Shown here one piece after another: positions 12,538 to 20,264 of a stretch of 39,609 nt of DNA. The notes beneath the pieces are model-generated. The model saw only the letters and a list, made by a program, of their open reading frames with translations, searched no databases and was not told the DNA's origin. Source of the stretch: Ignavibacteria bacterium. Lineage in GTDB: Bacteria; Bacteroidota; Ignavibacteria; Tepidaquicellales; Tepidaquicellaceae. How positions within the stretch are numbered: position 1 is the stretch's first letter; each line of letters starts with the position of its first letter. A program made the translations under genes and the position numbers. The stretch lies in the NCBI GenBank assembly GCA_019187405.1, contig JABAQZ010000027.1:1-39609 (forward strand), in the 5' to 3' direction.

Positions 12538-12810
12538 GGGGGAAACCGTTTAAACGGTTTCCCCCTGCGCCACAAACTCATACATCGATTGAGCAAAAAA
12601 TCTCGAGTTCAGAAAAGGAGAGCGGGCGCATCACCAGCGGTAAAAAACCGTTTAAACGGTTTCCCCCAGTGCCACAAACTCATACATCGATTGAGCAAAA
12701 AATCTCGAGTTCAGAAAAGGAGAGCGGGCGCATCACCGGCGGTAAAAAACCGTTTAAACGGTTTTTCCCCCCAGCTCCACAAACTCATACATCGATTGAG
12801 CAAAAATCTC
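12538..12810. repeat. Three tandem 102-bp repeats with palindromic cores
   Basis: Three copies start at 12543, 12645 and 12747, an exact 102-bp period; the third breaks off near 12810. Each begins with the 18-bp perfect palindrome AAACCGTTTAAACGGTTT. In copy 1 the symmetry extends to 28 bp (12538-12565, flanked by five G and five C), in copy 3 to 22 bp (12745-12766), and in copy 2 it is 18 bp (12645-12662). The shared body contains ACAAACTCATACATCGATTG, ATCTCGAGTT and GGAGAGCGGGCGCATCACC and is more G+C-rich than its surroundings. Because 102 is divisible by three, two reading frames stay open across the array, but these look like by-products. No hairpin is followed by a T-tract, so it is not a standard terminator. 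Confidence 0.9.
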
Positions 12811-12952
12811 GATTGCTGTTAATATAAGAAATAATTTATAAAACTGAACTTTATTCAGAATATTATAACAGCTAAATATATATGCAGCAGATTCCAGTTA
12901 AGTTCGGAATGATAATTTTTTCAGTCTCCATTTTCAATTAACCTATTTTGCC
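12811..12952. other. A+T-rich upstream region of the permease gene
   Basis: 142 bp between the repeat array and the permease start. It is A+T-rich and holds no gene. A TATTTTGCC stretch abuts the ATG and resembles part of a Bacteroidota -7 element (TAnnTTTG), but the match is incomplete and no -33 element is evident. Confidence 0.4.
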
Positions 12953-14386
12953 ATGTCAAAAAATTCTGCACACGAAGTTCATTCAAGCGGACTGCTTACG
13001 AAGCTTGGCTCTTATACAGCTATCATGATTGTAATCAGCTCAATGATAGGATCCGGTGTTTTTAAAAAAGCTGCTCCCATGGCAGCCGATGTTCAATCAG
13101 GAGGAATTCTTCTCCTTTGCTGGCTGATTGCCGGAATAATTACCTTTATTGGCGCAATTACAAATGCCGAAATCGCAGGACTCATTGCAGCGCCGGGCGG
13201 TCAGTATGTTTACTTCAAGGAAATGTACGGCAAAGCATTTGCTTTCATTTATGGATGGTCATGTTTTTCCGTGATTCAATCCGCATCTATCGCATCTATT
13301 GCTTATGTTTTTGCTGAATCAGTAAATGCCGTTATTCCTCTGCCTCGGTTAAGTGAAGTAGCAGAAAGCTTCAGCATACTCGGCATCTTTTTTCCTTTTC
13401 AAAGTTTCGGTGTAAAAGCATTAACGATATTTACAATCATATTTCTTACTTCCGCAAATTATCTCGGTGTAATTTTCGGAGGTTACATTAATAACTTATT
13501 TACTGCGCTTAAAGTAGCCGGTATCTTTGTGATCATAATTCTCGGACTTACAATAAGCGGCGGTTCAGCCGGTAATATTACACCTATCGGACAAAATCCT
13601 CAGGCAGTATATGACTCGTCACTTGGATTATTCGGTGCCATGTTTGCCGCAATGCTCGGCGCATTTTGGGCTTATGACGGATGGAATAACATCGGTTATC
13701 TCGGCGGTGAAATAAAAAATCCCAAAAAAAATATTCCACGAGCGCTTTTTACTGGAGTGGGAATTGTCTTGGTAATTTATCTGCTGATAAACTTTACTTA
13801 CATGTATGTGCTTCCGGTAAATGAAATCATTGATATAAGCAGTAAAGATAATACAATCGTTGCAGTAGAAGTCCTAAGAAAATTTCTGGGTTTCGGCGGC
13901 GCTTTTTTTATTTCCATTCTTATTATGATTTCTACATTCGGAACTACAAACGGCACGATTCTGGCTTCTTCAAGAATTTATTTTGCAATGTCACGGGATA
14001 AACTGTTCTTTAAATCAGCAGGAAATGTCCATCCGAAATTCAAAACTCCTTATACTTCATTGATAATTCAGGGCTGCTGGGCTTGCCTGCTTGTGCTGTC
14101 AGGAACATTCGATCAGCTTACTGATATGGTAATCTTCGCTTCTTTTATTTTTTACGGAGCAGGCGCTTTCGGCGTCTTTGTATTAAGAAAAAAAATGAAA
14201 GATCATGACAGACCTTACAAAGTATCCGGATATCCTGTCATTCCCATGGTATTTGTGATTTTTTGTCTGACTCTCGTAGTGGTTACCGTATTGCAAAATC
14301 CGCGCGATGCAGGCATTGGACTTGTACTTGTCCTGTCGGGAATTCCGTTTTATTTGTTTTGGAATAAAAAAGAAAAATCAGAGTAA
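12953..14386 (+). CDS. APC-superfamily amino acid permease
   Basis: 477 residues, about 12 transmembrane helices, inner membrane. The helix-1 substrate motif is present as MIGSGVF (31-37, the family GSGIF). AAPGGQYVYFKEMYG and GAFWAYDGWNNIGYLGGEIKNPKKNIPRAL match the helix-3 and helix-6/7 regions of LAT/YfnA-like transporters of the amino acid-polyamine-organocation family. Substrate is not predictable. The last 29 or so codons (14280-14367) are repeated exactly at 17016-17103, beyond a restriction-modification cassette, so this gene's 3' end was the integration point but remains complete. Confidence 0.88.
   Translation: MSKNSAHEVHSSGLLTKLGSYTAIMIVISSMIGSGVFKKAAPMAADVQSGGILLLCWLIAGIITFIGAITNAEIAGLIAAPGGQYVYFKEMYGKAFAFIYGWSCFSVIQSASIASIAYVFAESVNAVIPLPRLSEVAESFSILGIFFPFQSFGVKALTIFTIIFLTSANYLGVIFGGYINNLFTALKVAGIFVIIILGLTISGGSAGNITPIGQNPQAVYDSSLGLFGAMFAAMLGAFWAYDGWNNIGYLGGEIKNPKKNIPRALFTGVGIVLVIYLLINFTYMYVLPVNEIIDISSKDNTIVAVEVLRKFLGFGGAFFISILIMISTFGTTNGTILASSRIYFAMSRDKLFFKSAGNVHPKFKTPYTSLIIQGCWACLLVLSGTFDQLTDMVIFASFIFYGAGAFGVFVLRKKMKDHDRPYKVSGYPVIPMVFVIFCLTLVVVTVLQNPRDAGIGLVLVLSGIPFYLFWNKKEKSE
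14280..14367 (+). repeat. 88-bp direct repeat, left copy (permease 3' end)
   Basis: Identical over 88 bp to 17016-17103 (offset 2,736 bp). It covers the permease codons from VTVLQNPRDAG through FYLFWN. Outside the identical core the sequences diverge but still look related: the left copy ends NKKEKSE and the right copy ends NNKKMS before a stop. The two copies bracket the restriction-modification genes. Confidence 0.95.
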
Positions 14387-14390
14387 TTGA

Positions 14391-14822
14391 ATGGATAATC
14401 TAACGATTTCACAAAGAAGAAAAAACATGCAAGCCATAAAAAGCAAGAATACAAAAATTGAAATCTTATTAGGAAAATTAATGTGGAATAAAGGATTACG
14501 CTATCGAAAAAATGATTATACAGTATTAGGAAAACCTGACTTCACATTTAAACAAAAAAAAATTGCTGTATTTTGTGATGGTGAATTTTGGCATGGTAAA
14601 AACTGGTCAAATGAAAAATATAGAATAAAAAGCAATAGAAAATATTGGTTTGCGAAAATTGAGAGAACCATAATTAGAGATAACAAAATAAACCGAGAAC
14701 TTAAGAAAAATGGGTGGATTGTAATTCGATTCTGGGCAAAAGAAATAGAGAAAAAGAATAGTAAGTGTATCGATAAAATTATAAAGAACATAAATCAACG
14801 AACTGAAAAATCCATCAAATAA
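14391..14822 (+). CDS. vsr: Vsr-like DNA mismatch endonuclease
   Basis: 143 residues. Family motifs run in order: RRKNMQAIKSKNTKIE at the N-terminus, GLRYRKND-like basic segment, GKPDFTF with the metal Asp, and FCDGEFWHGKNW, matching the Vsr FxxGCFWHxH block (Cys replaced by Glu). NRKYWFAKIERTIIRDNKI and GWIVIRFWAKEI match the C-terminal core. Vsr nicks T:G mismatches produced by deamination of 5-methylcytosine, which fits the neighbouring cytosine methyltransferase. It starts 4 bp after the permease stop and overlaps the convergent restriction gene by 28 bp. Codons are strongly A+T-biased (many AAA, AAT, ATA), unlike the permease. Confidence 0.82.
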   Translation: MDNLTISQRRKNMQAIKSKNTKIEILLGKLMWNKGLRYRKNDYTVLGKPDFTFKQKKIAVFCDGEFWHGKNWSNEKYRIKSNRKYWFAKIERTIIRDNKINRELKKNGWIVIRFWAKEIEKKNSKCIDKIIKNINQRTEKSIK

Positions 14823-15772
14823 TTTTCTTCATCAATTTTGTAAAAAGTTACATCTGTTCTTCCGTATTTAACTAAATCATCCTTTGTTATAAACGAACCG
14901 CTGGATAAATTAAGTCGATATCTGAAATACTCACCAAGTAATGAGTTGTTTAAGGTTGTATGAATACCTTTGCCGCTATCTTGTGCGCGAACACAAATAA
15001 ATTGTTTCTTATCATCTGTGAAGATGGTAAAAGTTTTATATCTATCAGGAAAAAAACCTGATCTGCCAATTTTTGCAGGAATATTAATATAAGCTTGATT
15101 AGGCTCTCTGCCTTTTCTTTGACCCCAGTTTAAACCAGATCTCGAAGGAACTTCTCCTTTTTTTTCAAGAAATGTAAGAGTTACATTAGGCAGATTGAGA
15201 ATATTAGAAGTTAACACAGTGTTAACTTCATCAGATTCATCTGGTATCAATACCTTCTTATTTAATAAGATTCTATCATAAATATTAATTAGCTCCTGAA
15301 TATTCTCATTATCACAATTTACGGTTTCATCCAACAGTGAAAAAAAATATTCACGACATGTTTTTGCATCTTCCTCTATTAATATTTCTCTCATAGAAGA
15401 ACTAAATCCGCTTTGTGTGTAATTTGCAGAACCAACAAATCCTGCAATAGGATTTTTGTCTTTATACCAAGCATATATTTTGGAATGAACAGGAGGAGAA
15501 TCAATAACATAGTTGCATTTGAAATCGATTTCAAATTTGTTTGTCTGCAAATCCTTAAATGCTAAATGATTTTTTTTATCAATTCCGTCTAGTGGACACA
15601 TTCCAACAATCAATCGAATAGAAAAACCTTTTTTTAAAGTTCTTGCAAAATGAGCGTGTCGCATTACCATCATAGCAGTTGCATAACCCGAAACAACATA
15701 CAATGTGTTCGCACCATTTTTTAAGGGTTCAACAAGTGCTTTTTCAAATAGTTTACTAGTTATTAAACTCAT
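14795..15772 (-). CDS. NgoFVII-family type II restriction endonuclease (PLD-type nuclease)
   Basis: 325 residues. A phospholipase-D-like catalytic block is visible: HSKIYAWYKDKNPIAGFVGS followed by ANYTQSGF, the HxK...(G/S)...N pattern, near residues 95-125. The N-terminus (LFEKALVEPLKNGANTLYVVSGYA) and the C-terminal half (SRSGLNWGQRKGREPNQAYI, KTFTIFTDDKKQF, GKGIHTTLNNSLLGEYFR) resemble NgoFVII-like enzymes with a C-terminal target-recognition domain. NgoFVII recognises GCSGC; whether this enzyme shares that site is unknown. The start lies 2 bp after the methyltransferase stop, so modification is made before restriction on one transcript. Confidence 0.78.
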   Translation of the reverse strand: MSLITSKLFEKALVEPLKNGANTLYVVSGYATAMMVMRHAHFARTLKKGFSIRLIVGMCPLDGIDKKNHLAFKDLQTNKFEIDFKCNYVIDSPPVHSKIYAWYKDKNPIAGFVGSANYTQSGFSSSMREILIEEDAKTCREYFFSLLDETVNCDNENIQELINIYDRILLNKKVLIPDESDEVNTVLTSNILNLPNVTLTFLEKKGEVPSRSGLNWGQRKGREPNQAYINIPAKIGRSGFFPDRYKTFTIFTDDKKQFICVRAQDSGKGIHTTLNNSLLGEYFRYRLNLSSGSFITKDDLVKYGRTDVTFYKIDEENYLMDFSVR

Positions 15773-15774
15773 TT

Positions 15775-16881
15775 TTAAGAGTATTCCTCTGTTGATTCTG
15801 AAACTAATTCTCCAAATAAATTTTTTTGACTTAATTTAATATTTGGTTCAGTATTTTCATAAGCAATTCCTGCGAATGTTTTTAATATTGCTTCAAATAT
15901 TATTTTTACACCTCTAGGAGGAACTGCCATTCCAATCTGCTTTCTCACACTTTCTTTTGAACCGTAAAAAATAAAATCATCAGGAAAAGTTTGAAGTCTT
16001 GCTCTTTCACGATTTGTTAATGCCCTGTTATATTTCCAATGATATACATGTGTTCCTCCTCCCCCACTTCCTGTTATTGTATAAGCAGGTTTATCGGGAT
16101 CAAGCCTTTTATAAATCTGACTTATTTGAGCTCCTCTAATATTTAATTGTAAATGTTCTGGTAACTTTGCAGTAAAAGCATTTTCACCCGGCTTAATGTG
16201 CTTAAGTCTTTCAATCACATTGTTTGACTGGTTTGTCAATTCATTGTTTGGTGAGTTTTCAATTATTGGTGGATTCTCTATTGCTTCTCTAGAGGTAATA
16301 ATTCTGGGGCTTTTTAAAATCGGGATTTTAAAATCTAAATTTAAATCCGTTCTTATTCCCACAATTATTATTCGATGTCTCCTTTGAGGAACTTCATAAT
16401 ATTCAAATTTATAAAGGTGAGCTTTAACGTCATAACCAACATCTCTTAAATCTTCTATTATTTTTTCAAATGCCTTTCCATCATTGGAATTTCGCAATCC
16501 TCCTACATTTTCTGCTAGAAACCAAAAAGGCTGGAATTTTTGTAGAATTTTAACTCCATAAGAGTATAGAGGACCATAAGGTCCTTCAATTCCCTTCTGT
16601 TCACCTACAATAGAAAAATCATTACATGGAAAACCAAAAGCTAATGCGTCTATTTCCGTTAACTTATCAATGTTCAGTTTTCTAACATCTTTACAAATTA
16701 CTGATTTTGTGTTTACTGAGCAAATATTTTTAGAGTAAGTTTCACATGTATCTTTATCATAATCATTTGCCCATTCATGAACTATTGAGAATTCTTTCCC
16801 ATTAATAATAAAAGCCGCTTCTTTTGCCCCTAAGGCAATTCCACCAGGTCCACAAAATAATTCTCCAAGCCTAAATTTCAT
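15775..16881 (-). CDS. dcm: DNA (cytosine-5) methyltransferase
   Basis: 368 residues with the ordered m5C motifs: I GELFCGPGGIALGA (6-19), IV FGFPCNDFS with the catalytic Cys (PCN rather than the usual PCQ), VI FLAENVGGLRNS, VIII VPQRRHRIIIVGIR, then the variable recognition region, IX LTNRERARLQTFPDDF and X IGMAVPP. It methylates the cassette's own recognition site and protects against the adjacent NgoFVII-type enzyme. It is first in a minus-strand operon M-R. The 135 bp upstream of its start, before the repeated permease fragment at 17016, is very A+T-rich and probably holds its promoter. Confidence 0.9.
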   Translation of the reverse strand: MKFRLGELFCGPGGIALGAKEAAFIINGKEFSIVHEWANDYDKDTCETYSKNICSVNTKSVICKDVRKLNIDKLTEIDALAFGFPCNDFSIVGEQKGIEGPYGPLYSYGVKILQKFQPFWFLAENVGGLRNSNDGKAFEKIIEDLRDVGYDVKAHLYKFEYYEVPQRRHRIIIVGIRTDLNLDFKIPILKSPRIITSREAIENPPIIENSPNNELTNQSNNVIERLKHIKPGENAFTAKLPEHLQLNIRGAQISQIYKRLDPDKPAYTITGSGGGGTHVYHWKYNRALTNRERARLQTFPDDFIFYGSKESVRKQIGMAVPPRGVKIIFEAILKTFAGIAYENTEPNIKLSQKNLFGELVSESTEEYS

Positions 16882-16998
16882 GAATAGTTATTTAATTTGA
16901 TTTACAATAATTTCATCAGAAATTTAATTTATTGATGTTCAATATACAATTCTAAAAAGATAAGAAGCTCCAATACTTGATATAAGCATATTAAATTT

Positions 16999-17119
16999 TA
17001 TTTTTGTATTAGTTCTGGTTACCGTATTGCAAAATCCGCGCGATGCAGGCATTGGACTTGTACTTGTCCTGTCGGGAATTCCGTTTTATTTGTTTTGGAA
17101 TAATAAGAAAATGTCATAA
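16999..17119 (+). pseudogene. Second copy of the permease 3' end (gene remnant)
   Basis: Contains the right 88-bp repeat copy (17016-17103), in frame as LVTVLQNPRDAG through FYLFWN, then NNKKMS and a stop at 17117-17119. The segment just before the repeat (IFVLV) looks like an eroded version of the upstream gene's FVIFCLTLV. No start codon or permease body precedes it. Recombination between the two copies would remove the cassette and leave a permease ending in NNKKMS. It is probably the original 3' end of the permease or a duplicate made on insertion. Confidence 0.88.
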
Positions 17120-17153: not shown

Positions 17154-17627
17154 ATGAAAAATCTAATTTCCCTATTTGTTTTTTCTCTTGTAATCTTTTC
17201 CCTTGTTCTGATTTCAGAAAAATCTGCTTTTAATAAAACTAATTCAGATTCTGACTCTGTCGAAGCAAAGAAAAAAATTTACATTGATGCACTTAAAGAA
17301 CAAATTAAAGGCAAAGAACAATTGCCATCGGAAACAGTCTTCAAAGACCTTCAAATGCTGAAAGAAATGCCTGCTGAAAAAATTCTTTCTATTATGGATA
17401 AAGGTTTTAGCAATTCGCTTGGCGTAAGCTGTGAACATTGTCACAATACTGAAGACTGGGCTTCCAATGAAAAAAAGGAAAAAATTATTGCAAGAGAAAT
17501 GATGAAACTCTCCGGTCAGATAAGAAATATGATTTCTAATATTAAAGAAATTGACTCGGAGAATGCATCTGTATCATGTTACACATGCCACAGAGGTCAG
17601 ATCATACCGGCAACAAAGCCAAATTAA
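17154..17627 (+). CDS. Secreted cytochrome c with two CXXCH sites (CytoC_RC-like)
   Basis: 157 residues with a hydrophobic N-terminal signal or anchor (LISLFVFSLVIFSLVLISE). Heme attachment sites are CEHCH (93-97) and CYTCH (142-146). LPSETVFKDLQMLKEMPAE and the pattern LGVSCEHCHNTEDWASNEK, then KIIAREMMKLSGQI, match small proteins annotated as 'photosynthetic reaction centre cytochrome c subunit' family. They occur widely in non-phototrophs and do not imply photosynthesis. It is predicted periplasmic or membrane-tethered and involved in electron transfer, partner unknown. It begins 35 bp after the permease remnant and would have been the permease's direct neighbour before the insertion. Confidence 0.78.
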   Translation: MKNLISLFVFSLVIFSLVLISEKSAFNKTNSDSDSVEAKKKIYIDALKEQIKGKEQLPSETVFKDLQMLKEMPAEKILSIMDKGFSNSLGVSCEHCHNTEDWASNEKKEKIIAREMMKLSGQIRNMISNIKEIDSENASVSCYTCHRGQIIPATKPN

Positions 17628-19616: not shown

Positions 19617-20264
19617 ATGAAAATATTTATTGATACAGCAAATCTGAATGAAATACGCGAAGCTGCTGATATGGGAGTTCTCGACGGTGTTACGACAAAT
19701 CCGTCTCTGGTTTCAAAGGAAGGTCACAAAGATTTCCGCTCGATGCTTGAAAAAATCTGCGCTATCGTTGACGGAGACATCAGCGCCGAAGTTGTTTCCA
19801 CAAAGTGCGATGATATAGTCAAAGAAGGACGGGAATTATCCAAAATTCATAAAAATATTGTAGTAAAAGTGCCGCTTATTGGCGAAGGTCTCAAAGCCGT
19901 TAAGATTTTTGCTGCAGAAGGGATAAAGACAAATGTAACGTTATGTTTTTCTCCGACTCAGGCTTTGCTGGCTGCCAAAGCCGGTGCTTATATAATTAGC
20001 CCGTTTGTCGGCAGACTCGATGATATTTCTCAAAACGGAATGGAACTTATTCAGCAGATTATACAGATTTACGGAAACTATAATTATAAAACACAGGTGC
20101 TCGTGGCTTCGGTTAGACACCCTATTCATGTTGTCGATAGTGCGCTTATGGGAGCTGACATTGCTACAATGCCGTTTAAAGTAATCGAACAGCTGGTTAA
20201 ACATCCGCTGACAGATATCGGTCTTGAAAAATTTCTAAGCGATTGGAAAAAACTCAACGGGTGA
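19617..20264 (+). CDS. tal: Transaldolase (small TAL/FSA family)
   Basis: 215 residues, full length for the short family. TTNPSL (26-31) and the Schiff-base Lys84 in [11 protein letters not shown] identify it. Two positions separate transaldolase from fructose-6-phosphate aldolase. Glu58 (SAEVV) is here where FSA has Gln, and Phe130 (SPFVGRLDD) where FSA has Tyr. Both favour true transaldolase, moving a dihydroxyacetone unit in the non-oxidative pentose phosphate pathway. The neighbours give no operon context. ATG 19617 fits the conserved [10 protein letters not shown] start. Confidence 0.88.

Follow-up and report, generated by a model that had tools for sequence, protein, structure and literature searches.

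The 39,609-nt contig JABAQZ010000027.1 of an Ignavibacteria bacterium (GCA_019187405.1, family Tepidaquicellaceae), hereafter the window, carries a predicted type II restriction-modification cassette at the 3′ end of an amino-acid permease gene. Identical 88-bp copies of that gene end lie on both sides of the cassette. The cassette probably entered the permease 3′ end by an insertion that duplicated a long target.

A permease gene end on both sides of a cassette

Features of the locus are as follows.

12953–14386, + strand: APC-family amino-acid permease, intact, 477 amino acids (Pfam AA_permease_2, E 1e-52); the last 107 nt carry repeat copy 1
14280–14367, + strand: repeat copy 1, within the permease 3′ end; 88/88 identical to copy 2
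14368–17015, no strand: putative inserted segment, 2648 bp between the repeats; no terminal inverted repeats at its ends
14391–14822, + strand: Vsr-like mismatch endonuclease (Pfam Vsr, E 4e-30; TIGR00632 above cut-off)
14795–15772, − strand: NgoFVII/NgoVII-type restriction endonuclease (PF09565, PLD, and PF20731, B3-like DNA-binding, both above cut-off)
15775–16881, − strand: 5-methylcytosine (m5C) DNA methyltransferase (PF00145, E 2e-77)
17016–17103, + strand: repeat copy 2, orphan permease 3′ end
17104–17119, + strand: orphan tail, codons to NNKKMS*; presumably the original permease terminus if the target was duplicated

The copies form an exact direct repeat spaced 2736 bp start to start, and an identity of 88/88 is beyond chance. 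A 42-nt core of the repeat, searched with up to 3 mismatches through the 3.78-Mb, 38-contig draft genome, has two sites only, both at this locus. The initial annotation had reported the identical repeat, an upstream copy that completes the permease, and a host gene left whole; all three points were confirmed, and the intact 477-amino-acid AA_permease_2 protein ends in copy 1. The downstream copy had been called an orphan in the same frame. It does lie in the permease frame, within a 51-codon open stretch that starts 17 codons upstream and holds no permease body; the small correction is that the C-terminal tails past the identical block differ (NKKEKSE* in the intact permease, NNKKMS* in the orphan). 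The borders of the repeat are sharp, and the DNA beyond them is not significantly similar (p 0.07 on the right, 0.39 on the left). A likeness of the right-hand tails at p 0.005, obtained with a dinucleotide shuffle, was dropped when keeping the local A-richness gave the value of 0.07.

Pfam scans bear out the earlier description of gene content, in which only the Vsr-like, NgoFVII-type nuclease and m5C methyltransferase genes lie between the repeats; two antisense open reading frames (ORFs) of the insert matched no Pfam family. As also claimed, no recombinase, integrase or transposase was found among the insert and window ORFs scanned. No tRNA was found in the window. The arrangement is not that of a composite insertion-sequence transposon, as the flanking repeats are permease sequence and no transposase was found. 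The insert is A+T-richer than its flanks, with 27–32% G+C in its genes, 40% in the permease and 35% in the window.

The PLD domain of the nuclease carries an HxK motif (HSK at residue 96), and the methyltransferase has the motifs PCN, ENV and QRRHR (QxRxR). From these domains and motifs the cassette is predicted to be a type II NgoFVII-type restriction-modification system. It resembles R.NgoVII/NgoFVII in both nuclease Pfam domains, the HxK motif and the adjoining m5C methyltransferase, and differs from R.NgoVII in its low nuclease identity (phmmer E 2e-6) and the added vsr gene. The sole related solved structure found for the nuclease is 4rct, R.NgoVII. As a system of this type it would be expected to cut and methylate GC-rich sites, for example GCSGC. 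The vsr start codon lies 4 bp past the permease stop (window 14384–14391), and vsr may be transcribed from the permease promoter.

The locus in family relatives

The comparison set holds one genome per species, and the window genome is alone in its genus. The left neighbourhood, two phosphofructokinase genes and the permease, is conserved across the family, and permease orthologues in family genomes share 67–83% identity. Two genes mark the right side.

17154–17627, + strand: c-type cytochrome, right neighbour (NF033196); adjoins fsa in relative G013 (L143)
19617–20264, + strand: fructose-6-phosphate aldolase (fsa); straight after the permease in relatives L041, L045, L052 and G019

By tblastn over the fetched loci, a second permease C-terminus occurs only at the window locus and at L063 and L095. 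These last two are distant relatives with tandem permeases, and the two 3′ ends at L095 share 62 identical bp. Because family relatives have one end copy and several have the permease adjacent to fsa, the single-copy state is probably ancestral in the family, as judged from gene order and content.

Recurrence of the scar in related genomes

Loci of close nuclease relatives were fetched blind to repeats, and 80 PF00145 methyltransferase loci from the class were then added. A locus was scored as flanked if exact direct repeats, 30 bp or longer, lay on both sides of the target gene; seeds were 20–30 bp, so older scars were missed. In the null model, the target was placed at random within its own locus. 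Flanking repeats were found at 16 of all 158 surveyed loci, with 3.6 ± 1.65 expected, and none of 2000 random sets reached 16. The m5C-methyltransferase loci contributed 10/98 (2.6 expected), and the long direct repeat there was usually the 3′ or 5′ end of a host gene. N6/N4 methyltransferase loci gave 1/20, at a rhodanese gene end in a family member (L308). DUF4143 ATPase loci had been intended as a negative control and carried scars as well, with 5/40 flanked against 0.9 expected (p 0.0005); three of these were at gene ends and two were intergenic repeats (L344, L353). Among permease loci, used as housekeeping controls, a repeat of such size was present in 7/71 and spanned the permease in none. 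The duplicated gene ends include the following.

L180: iron-sulphur (Fe-S) oxidoreductase 3′ end with stop, 42 bp
L179: rhodanese gene, 121 bp or more, truncated at the contig end
L251: GNAT 3′ end, 109 bp with 3 differences; same family as the window genome
L308: second rhodanese gene, 66 bp; same family as the window genome
L260, L261 and L291: dnaE 5′ end; three species of genus g69
L284: end of an ORF
L330, 5054–7002: DUF4143 ATPase gene at the ychF 3′ end
L349, 5367–6740: DUF4143 ATPase gene at the alaS 3′ end
L338, 5251–6788: DUF4143 ATPase gene at the 3′ end of a secreted-protein gene

Rhodanese, GNAT, Fe-S oxidoreductase, dnaE and thrS were named from translations, and ychF and alaS were confirmed with Pfam. 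The three dnaE loci belong to one genus and are not fully independent.

Six loci with relatives of the cassette (L130, L132, L168–L171) have no long flanking repeat, so the cassette itself does not force one. Exact patterns of the 88-bp core and the left junction are absent from viral contigs, and viral loci with distant protein relatives of the nuclease and methyltransferase have no such repeat. Distant protein relatives of the nuclease also occur in two plasmids.

Genus g69 shows repeated use of one gene start. Locus L260 (5406–12933) has three dnaE starts, separated by two different restriction-modification cassettes. Extra dnaE starts were found in 5/7 g69 genomes searched, two of them as short, diverged pieces. 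Duplicated dnaE starts around restriction-modification cassettes were seen at L260, L261 and L291 (5893–8309), and also at L358/L363; genome G572 has two different cassettes in series. At L291 (5893–7203) the methyltransferase frame opens in frame with about 30 dnaE-start codons, and its translation could fall under the host gene start.

Four further loci were observed in passing. At L133 (11513–13284) a DUF4143 ATPase gene that adjoins an NgoFVII-type cassette lies between imperfect direct repeats of about 87 bp. At L271 (387–2900) the start of a putative thrS (threonyl-tRNA synthetase) gene occurs twice, identical over 65 bp, and about 2.4 kb of other genes separates the copies. At L289 (7590–10122) a 45-bp direct repeat lies at a putative tRNA 3′ end, with a 600-amino-acid ORF between the copies and an m5C methyltransferase beside them. 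At L131 (10130–12149) the methyltransferase matches in two pieces about 1 kb apart, which suggests that the gene was interrupted by an insertion.

Origin of the duplicated gene end

Reviews describe some restriction-modification systems whose insertion duplicates a long target of variable length, of the order of 100 bp (PMC3874152, PMC3031569, PMC4978471). The window resembles these cases: restriction-modification genes lie between direct target repeats of the order of 100 bp, with no linked transposase or integrase found. Insertion with long target duplication was reportedly described for restriction-modification genes by Nobusato et al. in 2000 and Furuta et al. in 2010. The described insertions come from strain comparisons, largely in Helicobacter pylori, whereas the window represents one Ignavibacteria genome with no strain pair. 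They differ further in that the same scars here also surround DUF4143 ATPases in related genomes.

Among the readings compared, insertion with long target duplication has the strongest support at the window. It is supported by the exact repeat, the gene content, the lack of a recombinase among the ORFs scanned, the single copy in relatives and the recurring scar. The initial annotation had proposed this reading for restriction-modification genes. The single copy in relatives and the recurrent scars uphold the insertion; the scar is not peculiar to restriction-modification genes, because DUF4143 ATPase genes carry it too.

On this reading, a type II cassette of vsr, NgoFVII-type nuclease and m5C methyltransferase would have entered the permease 3′ end in an event after which the 88 bp immediately preceding the junction flanked the insert on each side. 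The upstream copy would still encode the full permease, with its last few codons supplied by the insert edge, and the downstream copy would be a dead remnant. Since this block extends nearly to the stop codon, the permease would be kept whole. The duplication would have arisen in the insertion itself, most simply if the target was cut about 88 nt apart on opposite strands and both ends were filled after joining. Survivors would be duplications that span a gene boundary; these leave the gene whole and so should dominate, and both 3′ and 5′ ends occur.

Several observations weigh against this reading. The 17 codons that precede the orphan weakly resemble permease (p about 0.0004 to 0.008 over several nulls), which simple duplication does not predict; these tests were chosen after the likeness was noticed, their p values are to be discounted, and the likeness is suggestive only. 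At other loci, 35 of the differences that separate intact from orphan copies are synonymous and 14 are not, a pattern that a drifting dead copy would not give (p 8e-6, with 40% taken as our own expectation for mixed drift and edge codons excluded by hand). Family relatives do have single copies, some with permease and fsa adjacent, but the exact empty site, one copy with the permease directly before the cytochrome gene, was not seen among them. No junction intermediate or excised form was seen.

Homology-based capture is ranked second, as a serious but less likely rival. Incoming DNA would have brought its own permease 3′ end beside the cassette, either on a circle or on a linear fragment of which one end joined by homology and the other illegitimately. 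Recombination inside the 88-bp block would then give the intact gene the donor tail, and the orphan would keep the resident one. Homology-facilitated illegitimate recombination has been described (PMC3240628). The synonymous excess and the permease-like codons upstream of the window orphan both fit capture. At alaS (L349) the similarity of the tails continues past the block (17/30, p 0.0004), and at both L349 and L251 the stop codons line up. One g69 orphan dnaE start is nearer to the dnaE of another species (1/70 differences) than to its own (4). Elsewhere, however, orphans agree with the intact gene of the same genome, as in G662 (0/70), and the differences at L330 (1 synonymous, 5 not) and L284 (5 and 5) look like drift. 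Later allele replacement of the intact gene would yield the same synonymous excess. The sequence comparisons thus favour, at some loci, either a gene end that came in with the donor DNA or a later change of allele at the intact gene. Target duplication is ranked first for the window because there the two blocks match exactly and the DNA outside them shows no significant similarity on either side.

A site-specific integrase acting in trans on an attachment site at the permease 3′ end is very improbable. Integrative islands typically lie at gene ends and restore the 3′ end, and the window shares with tyrosine-recombinase islands a duplicated gene end and a whole host gene. Reuse of the dnaE start in g69 and the 45-bp repeat at the putative tRNA 3′ end of L289 would also suit an integrase. 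Unlike such islands, the insert is only 2.6 kb, no integrase was found among the insert and window ORFs scanned, and there is no common attachment sequence. Across loci the cassettes sit at different genes, some at the 3′ and some at the 5′ end, the repeats range from about 40 to 190 bp, and the related cassettes of L179 and L180 have differing edges relative to the genes, which argues against a fixed element end.

The orphan could instead be what is left of a tandem permease paralogue that was largely deleted as the cassette arrived, with its end kept identical by gene conversion. Tandem permeases do exist at the distant loci L063 and L095, and the permease-like codons upstream of the orphan would be expected. 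The account requires duplication, deletion and conversion together, meets a single end copy in the family relatives fetched, and leaves unexplained why dnaE, alaS, ychF and other genes bear such scars; we give it even less credence than an integrase. Least credible is an assembly error that fused two pieces of sequence at the 88-bp block: the draft does comprise 38 contigs and similar repeats lie at contig ends in L179 and L261, but the contig could exist only with both outer junctions assembled, and the ychF scar (L330) in the single-contig genome G263 speaks against a general assembly artefact.

We tentatively propose that Ignavibacteria and related genomes gain small defence-like cassettes by a general route that lacks a dedicated recombinase, which would duplicate or import a gene end of about 40–190 bp and keep the gene whole. 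The same tentative proposal has the route take several kinds of restriction-modification system as well as DUF4143 ATPases, act repeatedly at one gene (dnaE), and sometimes fuse a cassette to host translation starts. What goes beyond the described cases is the example from Ignavibacteria, the count set against a null model, and the finding that DUF4143 genes carry the scar as well. To our knowledge, Ignavibacteria were not previously known for such scars. How restriction-modification systems move without a recombinase has been a question since the Helicobacter long target duplications; scars at conserved genes and with a second gene family shift it from selfish restriction genes to a general insertion route, which becomes testable with strain pairs.

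A separate repeat lies to the left of the permease. Between pfkA and the permease, a 101-amino-acid ORF with no Pfam or NCBIfam match holds a tandem array (12543–12812) of 2.6 copies of a 102-bp unit, which contains the 18-bp perfect palindrome AAACCGTTTAAACGGTTT.
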